From Spinellus fusiger (Eukaryota; Mucoromycota; Mucoromycetes; Mucorales; Phycomycetaceae), in assembly GCA_025094145.1 (NCBI GenBank), contig JALLLS010000008.1:434001-498000 (forward strand): a DNA stretch of 64,000 nt, given 5' to 3'. Of this stretch, positions 1 through 53,129 are shown in pieces; within the stretch, counting starts at the first letter, position 1, and each line of letters begins with the position of its first letter. The position numbers and the translations under genes are program-made. The notes under the pieces were generated by a model. It ran no database searches. It saw only the letters and a program-made list of their open reading frames with translations, and was not told where the DNA came from.

Positions 1-552
1 GCATTCTATGGAAATACAGAAAGAAAACAAGTCGAGAATAAGAAACAGTCAGCTGTCCAAGTCCTTAAAGCTTATCTTGTTTATACTCTAGGAAGCTGTT
101 TGGATCAAAGTCTATTTTATTAAAGATGTAGACAACTAAAGATTTATACTATTTTACTATTTCTTTATTTTACTATGAATTTGTCTAATTTGCTATTCTC
201 AAGCAATAGATATGATCATAGAACATTCAGGCAGACTGAGAAGGATAGCTGTCCTGTCCTATAGTGTGTATAATCTCGGTTCTGTATTTCAAGGCCATAG
301 AATTCCATAAAGTGATTTTGCTGTAAAAAGGGTTTCTCTCTTCCCTGAAACATACATAGGACAAGAGGAGGAAACCCATCTCTAAATTTACTGAAATGTT
401 GTTGTTCTTCATAACTTCTACCCTCTTTATTTTGTTTGCCTTTGTTTGGCATATAAACCAACAGTTGTGATCTGGTGAGTGTTTGTGTATGTTTATTATG
501 TCTGACATGTTAGTCAGTTTCTATTGTATATTCTTTTACTATAATAAACCCA

Positions 553-1094
553 GTGAATACTTTAAAAAGGCATAGGCAAGAAGAAGGTGCCAGTGTGAGG
601 GTAATACGACACACACATAGAGAGTACATTAATACATCTCGAACTAATTATTTTTACTATTATTTTATTAGTGGAAAGGGGCATTGGCACCTAGAAAGAT
701 TGGGGTACGATCCTACCAAGCTGTCTGTAATTGCTTATGGCACCGGAATGAAGGGAAAAGATGCTACCAAGTTTAAAGGTTATCGTATTGGTTTGACAAG
801 GGTTTTATATCAATCATTGAAAAAGAGACAAAAAGATGGAGATTTTCTTATGGTTGATGTTGATAAATTTCGAACATAGAGGGTAAGCATGATTAACCTC
901 TCACTCAATATAAAATGCTCTTTTAACAGTTACTCTTATTTTTGTTCTCAAGATCTGCCATACTTGCAACACAAATATCCTCACCGAAGTATTAGTGAAT
1001 TTCAACACTATCCACGCTTGCCAAAGTTGCGGAATTGTTTAGAACAGAGATATGAATGCATCAAAGGGTATCTATACAGTCACATAAGAATAGA
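553..1094 (+). pseudogene. Fanzor (eukaryotic TnpB-like, RNA-guided nuclease family) C-terminal pseudogene, copy F1
   Basis: The frame from about 566 to 877 reads into the C-terminal half of a Fanzor/OrfB protein: ...IAYGTGMKGKD..KFKG..., then VDVDKFRT. An intron with a GTAAGC donor at about 882 and an acceptor at about 953 follows. The next exon encodes ICHTC...ACQSCGIV and NRDMNASK, which is the four-cysteine zinc ribbon and the RuvC-III region. Breaks: a stop (TAG) after FRT where copy F2 has Ser; a stop (TAG) replacing the Trp before NRD; Lys at the likely RuvC-II Glu (F2 reads VDEF); and a deletion of roughly 45 nt removing the C-terminus that F2 retains. No N-terminal half can be read. 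In the family this protein is a TnpB homologue guided by an omega RNA; this copy cannot make an active enzyme. Confidence 0.8.
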
Positions 1095-1125
1095 TATTCT
1101 TATTTATATTATATTATATTATATA

Positions 1126-1309
1126 TCGCCACATCGAAAGTGGTTTCCTTCGGGATTCAGATATTTACAGGTAAATCTACATAATAATATTTATTTAAAA
1201 ACTAACATGAATACATCTCACTTTATTTGCTCCTTTTCAAATCCATGTCATTTCTTAAACAATTGTAGTTTGACTATTTCTTTTTATATCCCAAAGACCT
1301 CCTGGTGTG
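1126..1309 (+). other. Conserved 3' tail of the Fanzor element, possible omega-RNA locus
   Basis: This non-coding stretch downstream of the zinc-ribbon exon aligns closely with 50342-50534 (inverted), although the coding regions of the two copies have diverged by stops, frameshifts and deletions. It ends at the terminal CCTGGTGTG motif. In TnpB and Fanzor systems the guide RNA is transcribed across the 3' end of the element, with the guide lying just outside it. By that analogy the scaffold would lie here and the guide at about 1310-1330. This is inference from position and conservation only; no RNA structure was computed. Confidence 0.3.
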
Positions 1310-1726
1310 TATGGCTTCCGTACTCACCCATCCCGATATGTTTCATTTTCATTCTCCTAAAATAAAGCAGAATTGAGTTTGAAAAAGAGCAACGCCTCGT
1401 GTCAGTTCAGCCCATCCAGAGACAAAAAAAGAAAGAAAAAAAAAAAGTTGGCTATGTTGTGAATGGTATTTTAGTATTAATATTGATATTTAGCACGCCA
1501 CCATTACCAAAAGAGAAGACATCAAGGAGATAAACATTGGCAAGAGAACACCAAACACCAAACACCTATGTATTGATGTGTATATGTAGACATACCCCAC
1601 ACCATAGACAAGGCCCATTGATACCATTCTTTACATTTACTATGCTTATAACATGTGTGTTTTTATTCAATACAAAAAGACAATACTTTTTATCCAAGTG
1701 GAGTGTTGGGTGAGAGAGCTCGAGAT
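1310..1726. other. Intergenic, 3' side of the ADP/ATP carrier gene
   Basis: A 417-bp stretch between the Fanzor element and the stop codon of the carrier gene. It should contain the 3' UTR of that minus-strand gene. A short frame starts at 1311 (MASVLTHPDMF...) right at the transposon junction and stops after 21 codons; I cannot tell whether it is a remnant exon. Poly-A rich at 1425-1446. Confidence 0.5.
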
Positions 1727-2751
1727 TTACTCGGAGAACTTCTTGCCGAACATGATCAATTGGAGCTGATCGTAACCAGACAACACACCAGCACCAGCAA
1801 TGGCACGGAGGATGTTGGCACCAGCACCCTTGAAGAGGGACTTGGTACCTTCCTTGGCAACGATCTCCTTCAAGGCGTGGAGAGAAGAGTCGTACTTGAC
1901 GGCAGCACCGGAAGTCATCATCATTCTACGGCGGACAGTGTCAATGGGGTAGGAAGCAAGACCAGCACCAGTGGTAACAGCCCAGCCAAGCAAGAAAGTA
2001 GCCAAGAAGCTGCTCTGGAGATGTTCGGGCATGATGGGCTTGATAGAGTCGTACATACCAAAGTAGAGACCACGGTAGACAATGATACCAACGCAAGAGA
2101 TGTTGAAACCACGGTAGAGACCGGCAATACCATCGGAAGCCAATGTCTTGCGGTAGACATCAACAAGACCGGTGAACTGACGCTCACCACCCTTCTTGGA
2201 AGACTTGGCGTCGTTGGCAAGACGGGTACGTGCGTAGTCCAAGGAGTAGACGAAGAACAAGGAAGCGGCACCAGCAGCACCACCAGAGGCAAGGTTGCCA
2301 GCAAACCAGGGCCAGTAGCCATCCTTCTTCTTGTCCTTGTTGAACATGCGCTTGAACTTGTCCTTGAAGGCAAAGTTAAGGGCCTGGGTAGGGAAGTAAC
2401 GGATGACGTTGGCGGTGTTTCCACGCCACATGGCAGCCATACCCTCATCCTTGACGGTGCGGGAGAAGCAGTCAGCAATGCCCTTGTAGGGGGAAGCAAG
2501 ACGGCCCTGCTTGATCATCTCGTCCTGGTTCTGGATCAAGAGCTTGATACGCTCAATGGGAGCAGCAGCAGTCTTGGAGACAGCGGCAGAGACGCCACCC
2601 ATAAGGAAGTCCTAGGCAACAAGAAGATAAGCACACTGCCAAAAAAAGAAGAACAAAAAGAATCCAGTGCAATGACTCTTCTGCAGCATACACACTAGCT
2701 AGACTGCAATGAACTTACGATGACAAACTTGTTGGAATCCTGAGCAGCCAT
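1727..2751 (-). CDS. AAC: Mitochondrial ADP/ATP carrier
   Basis: Exons 2751-2719 and 2611-1727 give a 305-residue protein. It exchanges cytosolic ADP for matrix ATP across the mitochondrial inner membrane. The three tandem mitochondrial-carrier repeats are visible with signatures [14 protein letters not shown] and [11 protein letters not shown]; the RRRMMM hexapeptide is diagnostic of ADP/ATP carriers. Length fits the family (about 300-318). The first exon encodes only [11 protein letters not shown] and is joined in phase 0 across a 107-nt intron (GTAAGT...CTAG) to [19 protein letters not shown] element (GTTATAAAG on the minus strand) lies about 65 bp upstream. Codon use is strongly biased, as expected for a very highly expressed gene, which produces a long meaningless antisense frame. 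Confidence 0.97.
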
Positions 2752-2815
2752 TGCTTAGTAAGGGGTGAGGGGAAGAAGAAGAGGAAGGAGTCCTTGGGCC
2801 CAGCTGTGTGCCTGT

Positions 2816-2824
2816 CTTTATAAC
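2816..2824 (-). promoter_or_regulatory. TATA box of the ADP/ATP carrier gene
   Basis: On the minus strand GTTATAAAG lies 65-73 bp upstream of the carrier ATG, a spacing that fits a TATA box with a short leader. Supported by position and consensus only. Confidence 0.5.
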
Positions 2825-3027
2825 GGGCCAACGAAAATTTTTTATTTTTTTTTGTTATTTTGATGATCCGAGGCAGAGGGTAGATTGTGATTGGAGGGCA
2901 GGGATGCCAGGGGGTTGGAGGAAGGGGAGACGTAAGCAAACAACAAAAAGAGGGTCACTCTGTGGTTGGACTGCGAAAATAACAACAGCATACGAAAAAA
3001 GCATGCACTTTATTGCTTATTTCATGG

Positions 3028-19690: not shown

Positions 19691-20980
19691 TAATACCTTT
19701 TGTCTAATAAATATATATTTATTATTCTGTTGATCGTATCTATGTTCTATATGAGTTTGGTATTTCTACTGTATGTTGAATGTATTATTTGCAACAAAAA
19801 AGTAGAAGGACATATTACAAAAAAGGGAGTTGGAAAATAGAAAACTTAGATCCTTTGTTACAACTCACCGTACAAAGTACGGAAATAAGAGAATAAAAAG
19901 AAAAAATTAATAAAAAGAAACAAGGGAGTATTAAAATACCCACATTAAGAAAAAATAATACTTTGAATAGATATTGAGGGAAATACACTCGAAGAATAAA
20001 CGAATCTCCTTAATTGAGTATATTGTCGTTTTTCCTTTCTTTGATACTTTGAGTAAATATTACTGTAGTTTTGAAAAGTATATCTTTTTATCAGTTTTTA
20101 CCAAGCCACCAGAGTTATTTTTTCATCCTGCTGTTACTTTGAAATGTTTATCTTAACACTTCCTAAATTAGTAGTCATTTATACTTAATTGAGAGAGTCC
20201 GTTTTGTCGGTAATTTTTTTAATAGAAAATGAATCTCGATAGTAATTTTTTAGCAAGAGAATATGAAATATTAAGATAATAATAGGTCCTATTAGCTGCG
20301 CCAAACAAAATATATTAATATATCTTTCTATCTATAGTTGTAGCAAAAGTAGTAATTGTACTAGTAGTAGTAGTATCATATTTATATAAATCAGCTGTTA
20401 CACTTACACAGTAGCACTCAATACTGAACTACATCATTACCAATGAAGCTTATATAATAGTAAGAGGATTTTAACCCTAAAATAGATTTAGAGTGTCAAA
20501 AAATATGGCTGAAATCAGGTTTAAACACGAGGAAAATTGTATAAATTGAATAGTATTGTTAAAAGGTTTATAATATCTTCTATTGAAGGGTCATTCTTTT
20601 CAGGATAGTCATGGTATAACTAAAGATTGTGTTACAGTAGGCACTTATGTCTATATACTTGACTTAAAACATACCTAGCCTCATATATTTTATTGAAAGC
20701 CCCAAAGTCTGTTAAAAAACCCTCATTAAAACCCTTGGATTGCCACTGTATAAGATCAATTGATAATGTTGTATGTAAATACTAAGTCTCACTGTATGAA
20801 ACAATGCCAAATGGTTTCAATCAAACCAAAATTAATATCATATTCAACTCGAGTAAGATAACTTTGTTTTTTCTAATAAATATTCACATAAAGTGATATA
20901 CAAGATGGATCTGAATGTATTTCAATGAGCAGACACTACTGATTAAGAAATAAACATATATCAAATATTCAAATGAGCTA
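19691..20980. other. AT-rich intergenic DNA
   Basis: About 1.3 kb between the Tc1 fossil and the first 1321-bp element. No gene recognised. A possible isolated Tc1-type terminus (AAAACCC...GGATTGCCACTGTA) lies at about 20727-20751. The target TA of element A1 is at 20979-20980. Confidence 0.45.
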
Positions 20981-22301
20981 CACACCCAAAGATTTTTGGG
21001 ATATATAAAGAAATATCTTGAGAATAAAATCACAATATTCTTATGATTGGCTAATGTGTTTGAAAAAGCCTTTTCGATGTCTAAATGATCAATCTCAAAC
21101 TCTACTCGCCTATTCTAGCATTGGCTATTGACTTTGCAATTTAAAAGTATAGAATTGGCTGTAAAGACAAAAAATAGAACAAAAATCACCCCAAAATTAC
21201 AACTCAGTCGCTGCATTTATTGTTTAACATAATGTGTTATCCTTAAGCCCATAGTATTTGCAGTATGACACTGCTTAAGAAAGATGTATTATAGAACACA
21301 CTGAATTAACTCTAGTGGTCATTGTCCATAAAATAGAGAACCAAGCTCACTTATATTAAGAGCATTATAGTCATTCATTGAACCAATATCTATAATCACT
21401 TTAACAACTATCTCATTGTAACTGGTATTAACAATAGTACTTAGTAAGAATAAGATATTATTTCTAATACTGTCCTGTAGACCTAAGACAAATAGAGTGT
21501 GAGTTGTTTGACTTGTGAGTTTTATGAGTTAAGGCTAGTGTATACCCCACCAGAATAGAGAAAGAAAAATTATTATTTGTTTTGATATTCACCTCTTGTT
21601 ATTTCTCACACTGCACATACAACTTAACACTCAAGTACTCGTCAAGATGAGCATATCTGAGCAAGGTAATGTGCTATTATTAACAAAGAGAAACAATAGA
21701 AGGTGATAGCCACCACCAAATTCTACTCTTAAGGTAAAAAGGGTAAGCAGTGTCTTCATCTGGGCTTAAGCTCATTGTATTCCACAAGTCATAATACTGA
21801 CTCTTCTTCTAATAAATTATATATGGCTTATTATTCTCAAGACAAGTATTAAGTACAAGGTAAGCATACTATTTCTCTTGATCGAATTATTACTAATACA
21901 CTCTTCTGCTATTAGATAAGTAAAGACTCTTCTCAGGTCAGTTCCAGGTGGTATATTGTTCTTTCTATACTGTCTAGGGTGTCTAGGGTATATTCTCAAG
22001 TATATTTATCTATCTCCCAAGGATAAAACACAAAGCTTTTAGGGTGTATATTCTATTGCTATGAAGAAATACACCTAGAACAGCAGTAACTATATTATTA
22101 TAATAAACAATTTTATTCATAAACAATATATTCCATTGATAATACAATTTGATATTGAGATATCCACAAAAAGAAACAAATATTTGGATATCCGCAAACC
22201 TTTCTTTTGATTTTAAAAACAGATACATAAAGAGGGAATTGTATTGTGATGTAAAAGGAAAGAGCTATCACCGCTTAAAGGCCAGAAAATCTTTGGGTAT
22301 G
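20981..22301 (+). mobile_element. 1321-bp TA-flanked TIR element, copy A1
   Basis: Begins CACACCCAAAGATTTT and ends AAAATCTTTGGGTATG, flanked by TA on both sides (20979-20980, 22302-22303), the TA duplication typical of Tc1/mariner-type insertions. Length 1321 bp, the same as the inverted copy A2. It holds no intact transposase. On the minus strand two frames (22228-22010 and 21999-21817) have coding character; the second contains PPGTDLRRVFTYLIAEECIS, which recurs in copy A3 and, more diverged, in A4. It is therefore either a decayed autonomous element of unknown transposase or a non-autonomous one mobilised in trans. Confidence 0.85.
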
Positions 22302-22965
22302 TAAGTGGTCCATGCATTGATCTCAGTAAAATATTGGGAAATGTGTGCGTAGTTTTGATATATATTATTCGTGAGTAAAAATGTAAAAAGCCTTTAGGAG
22401 ATCACACAAATGAATCTATTGGTAAAGTTCACAAAACTTAGCCGACATAGAAAGTTATTATGTCTCAAACCCAGACCGTCAAAAGAAAGATATAGTTGGA
22501 AAAGTCTATCAATCAACATAAAAGAGCATAATCTGAATCATTTATTAGACATCAAATCTGGTTCGTTCGTAAAAGCCCTTTATTGTGCTAATTCAACCAA
22601 ATCTTACAAAGTTCTCGAACAGTCCATTTTAAATCAAAATATCATATATGTCCATTATATCAACTGATTGCTGCTTTAGAATATATACTGTTTGACAGTC
22701 TATTAGTGAACTGAGAGAATAAACCTCAAAAACCTTTATCCTTTCCGATATGTAACACCTATTTTTATGATCTGATTTCTTGTAAGCTGAATCAAGTTTC
22801 TTTATACGTATTGTTAGCTGATTATTGTAAACAAAATAATTGATTGGATTGAATCTCTATAAACCTTAAATAATCCAATACTTCTTGAGAATTGTCGTGA
22901 AGACTTTTCACCATAATGGGAAGGATCACTCTCTTGAGAATTAGAACTCATTTATCACCAAACTA
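22302..22965. other. Spacer between inverted elements A1 and A2
   Basis: 664 bp separating the two inverted 1321-bp copies. A frame of 85 codons (22410-22667) has no recognisable similarity and looks random. No other feature seen. Confidence 0.5.
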
Positions 22966-24286
22966 CATACCCAAAGATTTTCTGGCCTTTAAGCGGTGAT
23001 AGCTCTTTCCTTTTACATCACAATACAATTCCCTCTTTATGTATCTGTTTTTAAAATCAAAAGAAAGGTTTGCGGATATCCAAATATTTGTTTCTTTTTG
23101 TGGATATCTCAATATCAAATTGTATTATCAATGGAATATATTGTTTATGAATAAAATTGTTTATTATAATAATATAGTTACTGCTGTTCTAGGTGTATTT
23201 CTTCATAGCAATAGAATATACACCCTAAAAGCTTTGTGTTTTATCCTTGGGAGATAGATAAATATACTTGAGAATATACCCTAGACACCCTAGACAGTAT
23301 AGAAAGAACAATATACCACCTGGAACTGACCTGAGAAGAGTCTTTACTTATCTAATAGCAGAAGAGTGTATTAGTAATAATTCGATCAAGAGAAATAGTA
23401 TGCTTACCTTGTACTTAATACTTGTCTTGAGAATAATAAGCCATATATAATTTATTAGAAGAAGAGTCAGTATTATGACTTGTGGAATACAATGAGCTTA
23501 AGCCCAGATGAAGACACTGCTTACCCTTTTTACCTTAAGAGTAGAATTTGGTGGTGGCTATCACCTTCTATTGTTTCTCTTTGTTAATAATAGCACATTA
23601 CCTTGCTCAGATATGCTCATCTTGACGAGTACTTGAGTGTTAAGTTGTATGTGCAGTGTGAGAAATAACAAGAGGTGAATATCAAAACAAATAATAATTT
23701 TTCTTTCTCTATTCTGGTGGGGTATACACTAGCCTTAACTCATAAAACTCACAAGTCAAACAACTCACACTCTATTTGTCTTAGGTCTACAGGACAGTAT
23801 TAGAAATAATATCTTATTCTTACTAAGTACTATTGTTAATACCAGTTACAATGAGATAGTTGTTAAAGTGATTATAGATATTGGTTCAATGAATGACTAT
23901 AATGCTCTTAATATAAGTGAGCTTGGTTCTCTATTTTATGGACAATGACCACTAGAGTTAATTCAGTGTGTTCTATAATACATCTTTCTTAAGCAGTGTC
24001 ATACTGCAAATACTATGGGCTTAAGGATAACACATTATGTTAAACAATAAATGCAGCGACTGAGTTGTAATTTTGGGGTGATTTTTGTTCTATTTTTTGT
24101 CTTTACAGCCAATTCTATACTTTTAAATTGCAAAGTCAATAGCCAATGCTAGAATAGGCGAGTAGAGTTTGAGATTGATCATTTAGACATCGAAAAGGCT
24201 TTTTCAAACACATTAGCCAATCATAAGAATATTGTGATTTTATTCTCAAGATATTTCTTTATATATCCCAAAAATCTTTGGGTGTG
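22966..24286 (-). mobile_element. 1321-bp TA-flanked TIR element, copy A2 (inverted relative to A1)
   Basis: This is the reverse complement of A1 with no difference noticed by eye over the compared stretches; the two predicted frames translate identically (23039-23257 and 23268-23450). It begins CATACCCAAAGATTTT and ends AAATCTTTGGGTGTG, with its own flanking TA dinucleotides (22964-22965, 24287-24288). Since the DNA outside each copy is unrelated and each has its own TA, these look like two insertions or a local inverted duplication, very recent or kept identical by conversion. Confidence 0.85.
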
Positions 24287-26969
24287 TAAGAAGAGGACTC
24301 TATCGAATATCAAGGGATGTCGATAGTTCATAGCATTTCGATAAGTTAACCCCTGAATCTATACCATTATAAAAGTATAAAAGACGTATTAATTCCATTC
24401 AATATAAAACAGAGTTTAACTATACGTTTTACTGTTCCGTATACCTTTGGCTTAAAACCCCAAAGACGACAGAATCAATACAATATATATTGGTACCATA
24501 TTTTAGTAAATAATAAGTATAGCCCCTATAGAAAGACTTGGTGGTGTGGTATATAAATCTAGCTCTGCCAATGAGCAGACCCCCTTAAAAATCTCAAACA
24601 AATATTGCTCGTTAGGCTTTTGTTACTGATCATACTAAAGCGTACGTATATGGGTATAATAGTAGCCAAGCTTGCTTGAAGAAGAGTTAAATTATTGTTT
24701 TTGCTTTGTCATAAGCACTAACAGTTTATCTTTCTCACGGTGTTGTAGTGTTTCTGAGTTAAACAGGAAAATAAGAGACCATTCATTTGCTCAATTGAGT
24801 ACTGTATTGGGTTAAAAGGGTCTATAAGAAAGGCTTACTACACTAATTAGCATAGTGATCTGACAATCTCAAGGTTTAGTAGGCATGACAGTATAGTAAG
24901 TCAATAGAAGTTTATTGTTATTTTTGTATAACACATTAAAATAATAATAACAAATCGAAATAGATGGTGTAATTTTTATTAATAAAGTTTTTTCTTAGGA
25001 TATCATCAGCAGGCAATAGTTTGATAGATAATCCTATAGAAATTTCTAATTTATAAACTGAGTCCAACTTATACCATTGAGTGTTGTCATCAATGGCCCT
25101 TTTAATCCAAAAGGAATCTGGTCAGTTAACAAGTGGTTAAACTTGGATGTTTATTATTTTTTATTTCTGCGTCTTTTTTTTTTACTAATAGTATTTAGCT
25201 TCAGGGGTATGCTATTGAATACTCTAAACTATCACCATCCCTTAGTATTCAATAGCATCCACCTTCTCAGTTTAGTAGTTGGAGCTGATATTTCCCAAAA
25301 AGGGTTGCGGCTCCAATGATAGATAATATCTTTACGACAATGTCATATCCACATTTCAATTTAATAGGAATAGCTATAGCCTTTATTAAACAGAATGAAC
25401 ACTCAACTGTAGTCGAATTTTATTATTGAATCTTTTAGACCTATTCTTATTAGTTGATTATGATTTTTAATGAACAATAGAAGTGTATATGTAAAGTTAT
25501 TAAGCGACATATATGCATATGCTTTCACATGAATATGATGATAGTTTTTATGCCAACAACAAAAAGTATCAAAAATATTTTATTTATCTGCCTTACTGAA
25601 TAATGAAAAAAGTTCCATTATATAGGCCAGGGGGTTAATAGGATGTCTAAAGAGACATCCTGTCCTTACTTTTGATGACTTTCTGGTTGGTCAAAGTACT
25701 CTGTATCCACTGAAATAAATAAATCTTATAGCCTATTCGTTGGAATTTTCTTTACTTTTTATTTTTAATTACAACTTCTTGTGAATATTATCTTTGCATT
25801 TTCCCATCATTTCTCAAGAATTAGCATATGGAAATACCAGAATGAATATAAAATATAACTATATAAACACCGATACTATTGAGTGTTAAAGGTTAAATAT
25901 CGACTTTATAATTTTAATATAAATGTTAAAGATACAGTTATTCCTATCTTCATACTACTGGTATTTAGTGCTAAAGAAACCTTATTTCTATTATCATTAT
26001 CATCAAATCTATGAGCTGAGAAAGATATGTTTTATAATAGTGTTTGATAGTATCTAGAATATTCGTTTTATTCTACATGGTTCTAATACAAGTTATAGAT
26101 TCAATCCACAACTGATGCTGATGTAGTTTGCATCATTAGCGATTGTATTTGCATCATGACTGCATTTATTACTACTATCTAGACACAAGAATGAAATATG
26201 AGATATAGATACGAATAAAAAAAGCATAAGAATAGATTAAGCAAATATCTTATTACAATATAGATAATAGAAGAGATGCAGTGTCACCATTTAGAAATCA
26301 CCACTAACATACATTTGTTATTGCTTTAACAGGCAAAATGTTGTGTGCTAGAACATGCCAACAGATAGAAAGACCGTTCTATCAAGTAAAATATATATTC
26401 TACAATGCTTTGCTGCAGGTCATAGTACTTATCAATTTTCAATAGGATAGACCATCTATGACACATTATACCATGATAGTATTTTTATTTAAGTAAAAAA
26501 CAAGGACTGTAGTTTAATTTCTTGGCAGTAAAAAAAGACGTTCGATCTAAATCACATATAGCCTTTATCACTTATAACTTGTGTTGTCTATTCATCAATA
26601 TATATATCTACTCTATTGTTTTTATGATATACTCTCAGGCAAACACAACTAATATAATAAGTATTACCAGTCAATCATCTTTTAATATTCAAGTTTATTT
26701 ATGAGCAAAGTTTTTTTTCCATAAATATTCTAAGAAAAGAAATATTTGAGTTCTTTTGGAGAGACAAAAAAGTGATATTTAAAGACCAGCACTATCTCCT
26801 GGTGTGTGAGAAGACTATGTCCGGACCTATTAGTTAAAAAAGTATTTTTCTTTTCTTCCTTAGAAGTACCAAAATATGCACACACCACATACTAAACTTA
26901 CGGAGTCATTGATCTGGGTGATCTGTCTCTTTATAGAAATATAAAGAGGGTGGGTAAGAAAAATATACG
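24287..26969. other. AT-rich desert DNA with a hairpin
   Basis: About 2.7 kb without a recognisable gene. It contains a perfect 14-bp inverted repeat (25209-25222 and 25245-25258, ATGCTATTGAATAC, 22-nt loop) and a smaller hairpin at about 25642-25661 (GGATGTCT/AGACATCC). An end-like motif CTCCTGGTGTGTG at about 26798-26810 resembles the Fanzor-element terminus. The 80-codon frame at 25077-25319 is not recognisable. Confidence 0.5.
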
Positions 26970-48982: not shown

Positions 48983-49210
48983 TTGCTATTACTATTTTAT
49001 TGACTAGTTAGAGACATGAGTATTGGATCAATATGCCATTCATGTCAGCAGAAATGGCACTGATTTAGGAGAGAAAAAGAGAAAAAGAAAATTGTACTTT
49101 TGTAAGAGTCTATTCATACAATGGACTCATTCAACAGTGTAAATTCATTGATTCTGATAGTTTACTATGTGTCTAAATAGTGAATTTATAACAGCATGTC
49201 CTATTATTAT
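48983..49210 (+). repeat. 228-bp inverted repeat, left arm
   Basis: Reverse-complement match to 52902-53129, same length, with a single mismatch noticed (ACAGCATG versus ACAACATG). Outer end TTGCTATTACTATTTTATTG, inner end GTCCTATTATTAT. The arms bound a 4.15-kb segment containing Fanzor copy F2 and element A3. No target duplication is evident next to either outer end. Confidence 0.9.
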
Positions 49211-50341: not shown

Positions 50342-50534
50342 CGCCCACACCAGGAGATCTTTAGGATATAAAAGGAAATAGTCAAACTACAATTGTTTAA
50401 GAAATGACATCGATTTGAAAAGGAGCAAAAATAAATTATGTATTTATGTTAGATTTTAAACAAATAAAGATGATATAGATTTACCTGTAAATATCTGAAT
50501 CACATAGGAAACCACTTTCGATATGGCAATATAT
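50342..50534 (-). other. Conserved 3' tail of Fanzor copy F2 (possible omega-RNA locus)
   Basis: Counterpart of 1126-1309. Conserved blocks include CGAAAGTGGTTTCCT, GATTCAGATATTTACAGGTAA, GCTCCTTTTCAAATC and TTAAACAATTGTAGTTTGAC before the terminus. Conservation of a non-coding tail between two dead gene copies fits an element end and guide-RNA scaffold, but no structure was computed. Confidence 0.3.
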
Positions 50535-50551
50535 AATATGAATACAAATAT

Positions 50552-51125
50552 CTATTCTTCTCTACAGAAAGGAACTGGTCGGTGGCGACCATTCAAAACC
50601 TCTTCTGCAATTGTATAGATATTCTTTGATGCATTCACATCTCTGTTCCAAACAATTCCGCAACTTTGGCAAGCGTGGATAGTGTTGAAATTCACTAATA
50701 CTTCGGTGAGGTTATTTGTCCTACAAGTATGGCAGATCTTGAGAACAAAAATAAGAGTAACTGTTAGAAGAGCTTTTCATATTGGGTGAGAGGTCAATCA
50801 TGTTCCCCTTTGATGTAAGGAACTCATCAACACAACCATAAGAAGATCACCCTTTTGTCTCTTTTTTTCAATGATTGATATAAAATTCTTGGCAAACCAA
50901 CACAATGACCTTTAAACTTGGCAGCATCTTTTACCTTTATTCCTGTGCCATAAGCAACGACTAGCAGTTTGGTGGGATCATACTCTAATCCTTTTAGGTG
51001 TCAATACCCCTTCTAACTAATAAAACAGTAAAAATAATTAGTTCGAGATGTATCAACATACTCTCTATGTGTATGTCGTATTACTCTTGTACTGGCACCT
51101 TCTTCTTGCCTTTGCATTTGTAACG
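50552..51125 (-). pseudogene. Fanzor (TnpB-like RNA-guided nuclease family) C-terminal pseudogene, copy F2
   Basis: Better preserved at the C-terminus than F1. Reading the minus strand: EGASTRVIRHTHREY, YDPTKLLVVAYGTGIKVKD, KFKGHCVGL, then, after a frameshift, CVDEFLTSK (probable RuvC-II Glu intact). The intron region follows, then ICHTCRTNNLTEVLVNF, IHACQSCGIVWNRDVNASKN and IYTIAEEVLNGRHRPVPF before a stop at 50552-50554. All four zinc-ribbon cysteines and the RuvC-III Asp (NRDVNA) are kept. Breaks: a stop in the FIS*KG region, frameshifts before VDEF, and loss of the intron donor (GGGAAC where F1 has GTAAGC). N-terminal half absent. Non-functional as it stands. Confidence 0.85.
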
Positions 51126-51800
51126 GATTCACTGAGTTTATTAAAATAAAAGAATATACAATAGAAACTGACTAACATGTAAGACATAATAAACATACAC
51201 AAACACTCACCAGATCACAACTGTTGGTTTATATGCCAAACAAAGGCAAACAAAATAAAGAGGGTAGAAGTTATGAAGAACAACAACATTTCAGTAAATT
51301 CATGGATGGATTCCTTCCTCTTGTCCTATGTATGTTTCAGGGAAGAGAGAAACCCTTTTTACAGCAAAATCACTTTATGGAATTCTATGGCCTTGAAATA
51401 CAGAACCGAGATTATACACACTATAGGACAGGACAGCTATCCTTCCCAGTCTGCCTGAATGTTCTATGAAGATCATATCTATTGCTTGAGAATAGCAAAT
51501 TAGACAAATTCATAGTAAAATAAAGAAATAGTAAAATAGTATAAATCTTTAGTTGTCTACATCTTTAATAAAATAGACTTTGATCCAAACAGCTTCCTAG
51601 AGTATAAACAAGATAAGCTTTAAGGACTTGGACAGCTGACTGTTTCTTATTCTCGACTTGTTTTCTTTCTGTATTTCCATAGAATGCCATTATTATTACA
51701 ACCATTAGTTTGCCTTCTGTCAGCCCACACCCTTCTCTTTTCTGTCAATCTTCGTATGAGTAACCAGCCTTAAGAGGTCCTGTGTGTCTCTTGTCTCATA

Positions 51801-52726
51801 GCAACAGAATATTTTTGGAATATAAAGGGAAATACATGAACAATGAAATTATATTATTTGTTTTGTTGGCTAATGTGTTTGAAAAGAACCTTTTCACTGT
51901 CTGTCTGTTTTAGCATTGACTATAGACTGTGTAATTAAACACTATAAAGTTGGATAAAAGGAAGAAGTGAACTTGACATTGCAACTCAATCACTGATATT
52001 ATCTTCTTAACATAATGTGTTATTCTTAAGCCCACAGTATAACAATCAAGTACTCATCAAGATGAGCATAAATAAACAAGGTAATGTGCCATTATTAACA
52101 AAGAAAAGCAATAGGGGGAGGTGATAGACACTACCAAAGGCTATTTTTGAGATAAAAAGGTAAGCAGTGTCTTCATCTGGGCTTGAGTTCAATGTAATCC
52201 ACAAGACATTGTACTGACTCTTTTTCTAATAGATTATATATAGACTATTATTCTCAAGACAAGTATTAAGTACAAGGTAAGCATATTATCTCTCAAGATT
52301 GAATTATTACTAATACACTCTTCTGTTATTAGATAAGTAAAGACTCTTCTCAGGTCAGTTCCAGGTGGTCTTCTTCCTTCTATACTGTCTAAGGTGTCTA
52401 GGCTGTCTAGGGTATACTCCTGAGCATATTTATCTATCTCCTAAGGATAAAGCACAAAGCTTTTAGGTTGTGTATTGTATTGCTATGAGGGAATGTACTA
52501 AGGCATTAGCTATAGTCATACTATAGTATTATAATAGACAATTTTATTCATAAACAATATATTCTATTGATAATATAATTTAATATTGAGGTATTCACAA
52601 AAGGAAATAATAATTTAGATACTTGCAAAGCCTTTTATTTTAATCATTATTCCATAAAAGGTAATAATATTGGTCTTAAAAGGAAGGAAATATCATCGCT
52701 TAAAGGCCAGAAAATCTTTGGGTGTG
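51801..52726 (+). mobile_element. Internally deleted relative of the 1321-bp family, copy A3
   Basis: Right terminus GGCCAGAAAATCTTTGGGTGTG followed by TA is a perfect family end; the left terminus is worn (GCAACAGAATATTTTTGGAATATAAAG after TA). Internal blocks follow A1 order (GGCTAATGTGTTTGAAAA, CATAATGTGTTATTCTTAAGCCCA, ATGAGCATA..CAAGGTAATGTG). About 926 bp, so roughly 400 bp are missing. The minus-strand frame still reads AQEYTLDSLDTLDSI...RPPGTDLRRVFTYLITEECI, giving a comparison with A1/A2 that suggests an ancestral protein. Confidence 0.8.
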
Positions 52727-52901
52727 TAGACCTCCACTTTTATTGAACTATTATAATAGAATTACGATAGCGTCTGCTCTTATTTGGGATAGTGTTTGAG
52801 CACCATCCACTTTATACTTTTTTTATTAGTGTCATTGCCTGAAAGATGTCTATTCATTAAAACACTACTAATATAGCCTGATGGCGATACCTATGCAAAA
52901 A

Positions 52902-53129
52902 ATAATAATAGGACATGTTGTTATAAATTCACTATTTAGACACATAGTAAACTATCAGAATCAATGAATTTACACTGTTGAATGAGTCCATTGTATGAAT
53001 AGACTCTTACAAAAGTACAATTTTCTTTTTCTCTTTTTCTCTCCTAAATCAGTGCCATTTCTGCTGACATGAATGGCATATTGATCCAATACTCATGTCT
53101 CTAACTAGTCAATAAAATAGTAATAGCAA
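52902..53129 (-). repeat. 228-bp inverted repeat, right arm
   Basis: Reverse complement of 48983-49210. See the left arm. The 175 bp between A3 and this arm hold nothing recognisable. Confidence 0.9.

Follow-up and report, generated by a model that had tools for sequence, protein, structure and literature searches.

The minus strand of the window, that is, the whole 64,000-nucleotide stretch of Spinellus fusiger DNA that was analysed (contig C176:434001-498000), carries between positions 50552 and 51012 the final two exons of a Fanzor/TnpB-type gene, hereafter copy B. The last exon (E2, 50552-50737, minus strand) runs from ICHTC through CQSCGIVWNRDVNASKN to a terminal CREE and the stop codon, and it contains a zinc ribbon followed by the RuvC-III aspartate (RD) within NRDVNASKN (50621-50647). 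The preceding exon (E1, 50808-51012, minus strand) ends in VDEFLTSK (50808-50831), is frameshifted and has one early stop. Alignment to a second copy in the window places a former intron of 70 nt between the two exons (50738-50807, minus strand), whose donor has been lost and now reads GGGAAC. Further upstream in the gene, positions 51018-51114 (minus strand) hold the tail of the exon before E1 (RQEEGASAR) together with its intron, and the stretch in common with a fuller Fanzor locus on contig C13 begins here (C13 5050-5827 matches window 51114-50346 at 85.8%).

The second copy (copy A, 1-1311, plus strand) is truncated by the start of the window, the whole copy lying at L007 463-2824, and comprises E1 (676-882), a 70-nt intron (883-952) and E2 (from 953). 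The intron reads AGG|GTAAGC...CTCAAG|ATC. A stop lies ahead of its donor, another occupies the Trp codon, and 45 nt of the C-terminal exon are missing. The preliminary description had stated that the two copies are broken at different places and that copy B has suffered frameshifts and the loss of its intron donor, both of which agree with the breaks found here. It had also proposed splicing between Lys and Ile; the gene was indeed spliced, and the junction is Arg|Ile in copy A and Lys|Ile in copy B.

The catalytic C-terminus was likewise said to be recognisable in copy B, and this is borne out by the motifs read above and by the zinc-ribbon profile PF07282, which copy B alone, in its own frame with X at the stops, matched with 28.0 bits (E 2.5e-6; curated cut-off 26.3 bits). 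That this C-terminus is the end of a Fanzor/TnpB-type gene, above chance, is confirmed, because, of 457 candidates for the exon in the genome, 150 were scored and 147 of these passed the same cut-off. Fanzor and TnpB have been told apart by a glutamate that precedes the first CxxC by six residues and by DPG in RuvC-I (Yoon 2023, PMC10711439). The glutamate is present in copy B only across the intron (EFLTSK|ICHTC). The RuvC-I part had no match in copy B or elsewhere in the window, and at this position the C13 locus reads DLG and relatives read DPD, DPN or DPG, the last being the Fanzor motif. From the non-IS607 type of the element, we infer a Fanzor1. A PDB sequence search gave the TnpB-like protein L79 as the best match (E 3.4e-5 with a composite query, 0.68 with protein P0001), and the AlphaFold prediction for the RuvC half (8 rows, P0004 first) was set aside at a mean pLDDT of 45.

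Beyond what had been described previously, copy B proved to be an entire transposon, belonging to a family whose copies number in the hundreds. By the termini that it has in common with its relatives, the element occupies 50344-52728 (minus strand, 2385 bp), with inverted ends of the TACACACC type, a right end of the Fanzor type at 50344-50380 and a left end with a TC flank at 52706-52728. The right terminus common to A, B and the fetched relatives is GGTGTGTA, which in B reads GGTGTGGG, and the opposite terminus of the family reads TACACACC...AGATTTTTCTGG or nearly so. Most copies of the family are bordered by TA; in B the TA on the 50344 side reads CC. The window also contains two identical 1325-bp siblings that lack the Fanzor part (20979-22303, minus strand; 22964-24288, plus strand), and one empty site with a single TA established the TA target duplication for the sibling at 22964-24288. 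A 228-nt inverted repeat enclosing B (48983-49210 and 52902-53129, one mismatch) was considered as its end and rejected, the true ends being 50344 and 52728; the repeat had no further copy in the fetched loci, and no target duplication was seen around it. Six-frame translation of copy B and of a 3534-bp copy in L066 revealed no transposase domain, so the link to Tc1/mariner rests on TA and the inverted ends.

Across the 38.1-Mb genome, 725 left ends of the family were found with at most one mismatch, and the reversed pattern was found 0 times. Whole-read elements of the Fanzor type range from about 0.9 to 3.5 kb. The best protein match was P0001 of Spinellus fusiger (Mucorales), whose exon stretches match the C13 locus. 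Among the matches listed for this query (150 of 991 candidates scored), most rows contained the C-terminal exon alone, and the N-terminal part was met at at least five places (C13, C164, C179, C127 and C46). The C13 locus (L074+L073, C13:406700-412900) holds a near-full-length Fanzor with the RuvC-I motif GVDLGRK and in-frame stops, and copy B matches it over the final 0.78 kb that leads up to the right end, as well as over portions of the left half. Since the RuvC-I part is absent from B while these segments are common to both loci, B is taken as a deletion derivative. No intact Fanzor was found among the copies read, those read whole all being broken. Beside the C13 Fanzor lies an entire 1056-bp element of the Fanzor-less kind (positions 130-1185), followed at about 1190-2900 (minus strand) by reading frames that by eye resemble a LINE reverse transcriptase; upstream of the frame that encodes the Fanzor N-terminus, at about 420-480 and 660-710 of L073, there are two motifs (CxxC-GH-C) that we take to be zinc-knuckle-like.

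Copy B is thus very probably a defunct copy, with internal deletion, of a cut-and-paste DNA transposon that carried a Fanzor and had TACACACC ends and TA duplications. A Tc1/mariner-like transposase acting in trans would have moved the family, although no transposase was seen, and the Fanzor tail would have been carried along as a passenger, because it adjoins the right end that is required for mobility.

The preliminary description had called the C-terminus of copy B preserved, and selection on the C-terminal exons, either as a short protein or as the part of Fanzor still needed in cis, would account for such a state. E1, E2, the intron and the 3' noncoding DNA were therefore compared among 53 distinct copies, and dN/dS was corrected for the mutation spectrum seen in the noncoding columns, taking every one of the 1176 pairs that 49 copies form. 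The corrected ratio for E2 was 0.94 [0.60-1.60], matching that of the 3' noncoding control (0.92 [0.65-1.40]); the intron gave 1.49. The plain NG86 value for E2 (0.48) was discarded as a sign of selection, the noncoding control reaching 0.51-0.72 by the same method, which indicates an effect of mutation bias. Rare variants (in 1 or 2 of 45 copies) occurred with equal frequency at all three codon positions and in noncoding DNA. Because profile-fetched copies are biased toward intact motifs, copies selected by DNA were analysed apart. Among 29 of these, E2 was free of stops and of frame-breaking length in 15 of the 27 that could be judged, in agreement with the neutral expectation of 0.61 from substitutions alone. 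The second zinc cysteine was replaced by tyrosine in 17/29 DNA-selected copies and in 6/24 other copies, and the Trp codon had become a stop in 5/29 DNA-selected copies. The zinc exon E2 is in neutral decay and evolves like noncoding DNA.

Several features nevertheless speak for selected exons, and two of them also weigh against copy B being a plain passenger. The ratio for E1 is 0.63 [0.43-0.94], a weak signal which suggests that selection acted at some stage, and variants common to at least four copies are enriched at third positions in E1, not in E2. Moreover, the catalytic Asp codon is GAT in 52/52 copies, and a 57-nt block around NRDVNAS (E2 codons 22-40, about 50615-50671 in B) is unusually constant, with few variants common to several copies. 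Third codon positions of this block are as constant as the others, so its constancy is not a plain protein-level signal. Taken with the neutral behaviour of E2, this makes continuing selection on the C-terminal exons very unlikely. As a statement of selective upkeep, the earlier wording does not hold: it had itself named a lack of purifying selection and of any link to Fanzor as counting against it, and the former is what was found for E2, while the Fanzor link stands and E1 retains its weak signal.

The flanks of the elements gave a separate result. Of 440 exact left ends, 295 have C as the base that precedes their TA, while C precedes TA in 0.18 of cases within the window. Right ends showed C in 93/223 of the Fanzor type and 59/162 of the Fanzor-less type, counted among the matches listed and with at least these numbers of ends, since 100 of 130 and 100 of 103 rows were taken in two lists. 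The difference between all left ends and the listed Fanzor-type right ends (295/440 vs 93/223, p=5e-10) does not depend on class assignment. In 33 complete Fanzor-type copies, whose register was mended by hand where the pattern ran two bases off, C stood at the left in 27/33 and G at the right in 11/33. Left ends were also given a class according to which listed right end or Fanzor exon lay closest. This covered 241 ends, 149 of them on contigs as far as C104 and the other 92, all of the CAA variant, on contigs after that, and 86 could be assigned: C was present in 43/57 Fanzor-end and 11/29 Fanzor-less elements (p=0.001), and in 97 of the 155 ends without a class. The first subset alone gave 31/41 for the Fanzor type and 7/14 for the Fanzor-less type (p=0.098), and the CAA variant on later contigs gave 13/18 vs 4/15 (p=0.015). 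The left-right asymmetry thus appears, on modest numbers, to go with the Fanzor-type right end.

The left-flank motif resembles a target-adjacent motif and may mark Fanzor-dependent retention. It is a real possibility, if somewhat short of probable, that the Fanzor of a fuller copy, loaded with RNA of the right end and its flank, cut empty donor sites bearing a left-flank motif near YCTA. Repair at the cut donor site could then restore the element, a step put forward with similar reserve, leaving C before the left TA enriched in copies with a Fanzor end; restoration that depends on Fanzor would explain why the enrichment is found in copies with this type of right end. Fanzor might then serve in trans hundreds of deleted relatives that retain only the guide-RNA end, with about YCTA as the target-adjacent motif. 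The two classes have the left end, and presumably the transposase, in common, and the motif is enriched only in the Fanzor-end class. The RNA-guided step remains unproven because the search for an RNA scaffold came up empty: the right end folded no better than shuffled sequence, four predicted pairs showed no covariation, and Rfam gave no match. It is further weakened by the lack of any intact Fanzor among the copies read, by the small class numbers and by a bias that varies with the left-end variant, and a passive passenger moved in trans needs none of it.

The C bias could instead arise from the transposase or its choice of targets, acting on asymmetric ends, with no part for Fanzor. Both ends exceed the C background, so the transposase has a preference of its own; moreover, left and right ends differ in sequence, and the bias differs among left-end variants (C in 73/132 CAA ends and 222/308 others). 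This origin is a real possibility, if somewhat short of probable, and what stands against it is the Fanzor-less siblings, which have the same left end but carry C in 11/29, like the right ends listed for them (59/162, p=1.0). The class difference could also be artefactual, arising from small numbers, incomplete lists or misassignment, but this is rather unlikely. The fraction of left ends assigned, the incomplete right-end lists, the p value of the first subset and a possibly incomplete list of exon coordinates would all allow it, but the left-right gap persists when no classes are used, as does the contrast of 27 with 11 among the 33 copies read whole.

The closest parallel is the Spu-1 family of Spizellomyces punctatus, in which Fanzor and ghost elements alike have a conserved CA ahead of the left repeat, the target-adjacent motif of SpuFz1 is CATA, and ghost RNAs were suggested to serve Fanzors in trans (Saito 2023, PMC10432273). 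As in Spinellus fusiger, Spu-1 Fanzor1 and its ghosts are inverted-repeat elements in which full and Fanzor-less forms coexist, with no transposase found inside, and a conserved dinucleotide before the left repeat goes together with a motif ending in TA, for which the counterparts here would be, by analogy, YC before the TA and a motif near YCTA. Spu-1 differs in that its genes are full-length, its guide RNA has been sequenced and its cleavage has been measured, whereas the copies here are degraded and retain C-terminal exons; moreover, the ghosts carry the bias, unlike the Fanzor-less siblings here (PMC10432273). Fanzor1 has also been described in Tc1/mariner elements with TA duplications, including Fanzor-only elements with no transposase (Bao and Jurka 2013, PMC3627910), and the present family shares the TA duplication, the inverted ends and a Fanzor unaccompanied by a transposase. 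The TA-type Fanzor1 sequences named there are oomycete, viral and Hydra ones, and those of Rhizopus, Phycomyces and Mucor are MuDR-like with 9-bp duplications. The Spodoptera ascovirus Fanzor1 likewise belongs to a non-autonomous inverted-repeat element, whose end and target duplication lie within the guide-RNA scaffold; in that element the protein is intact and its RNA has been sequenced (PMC10711439), whereas the copies read here are broken and gave no RNA scaffold. Fanzor has already been published from elements that duplicate TA and from Mucorales, as have Fanzor elements whose copies reach into the hundreds. A literature search in one open-access library did not show the Spinellus fusiger family among the papers listed, and no open-access paper was found that paired Fanzor with Mucoromycota or Spinellus fusiger with a transposable element.

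The left-flank C bias in Fanzor-end copies is a new and testable lead. Should the bias prove real, comparing the flanks of sibling classes could test, in any genome, whether the nuclease favours the persistence of its element, and could predict a target-adjacent motif without an assay. Otherwise, the family provides a well-resolved case of the erosion of a nuclease gene in a multicopy family, in which an intact-looking catalytic motif in a single transposon copy need not mean selection.

In addition, several near-identical elements of the family lie in inverted orientation close to each other. The two identical Fanzor-less siblings in the window are separated by 660 bp, and their identity suggests recent movement or gene conversion. 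Elsewhere in the genome, pairs 10-17 kb apart were seen on C177 (L033/L034, C177:116758-118137 and from C177:131187; 99.9% over 1308 nt), C141 (L031/L032; 96.5% over 1621 nt) and C117 (L012/L013; identical across a 793-nt segment), for which local hopping or gene conversion may be considered.
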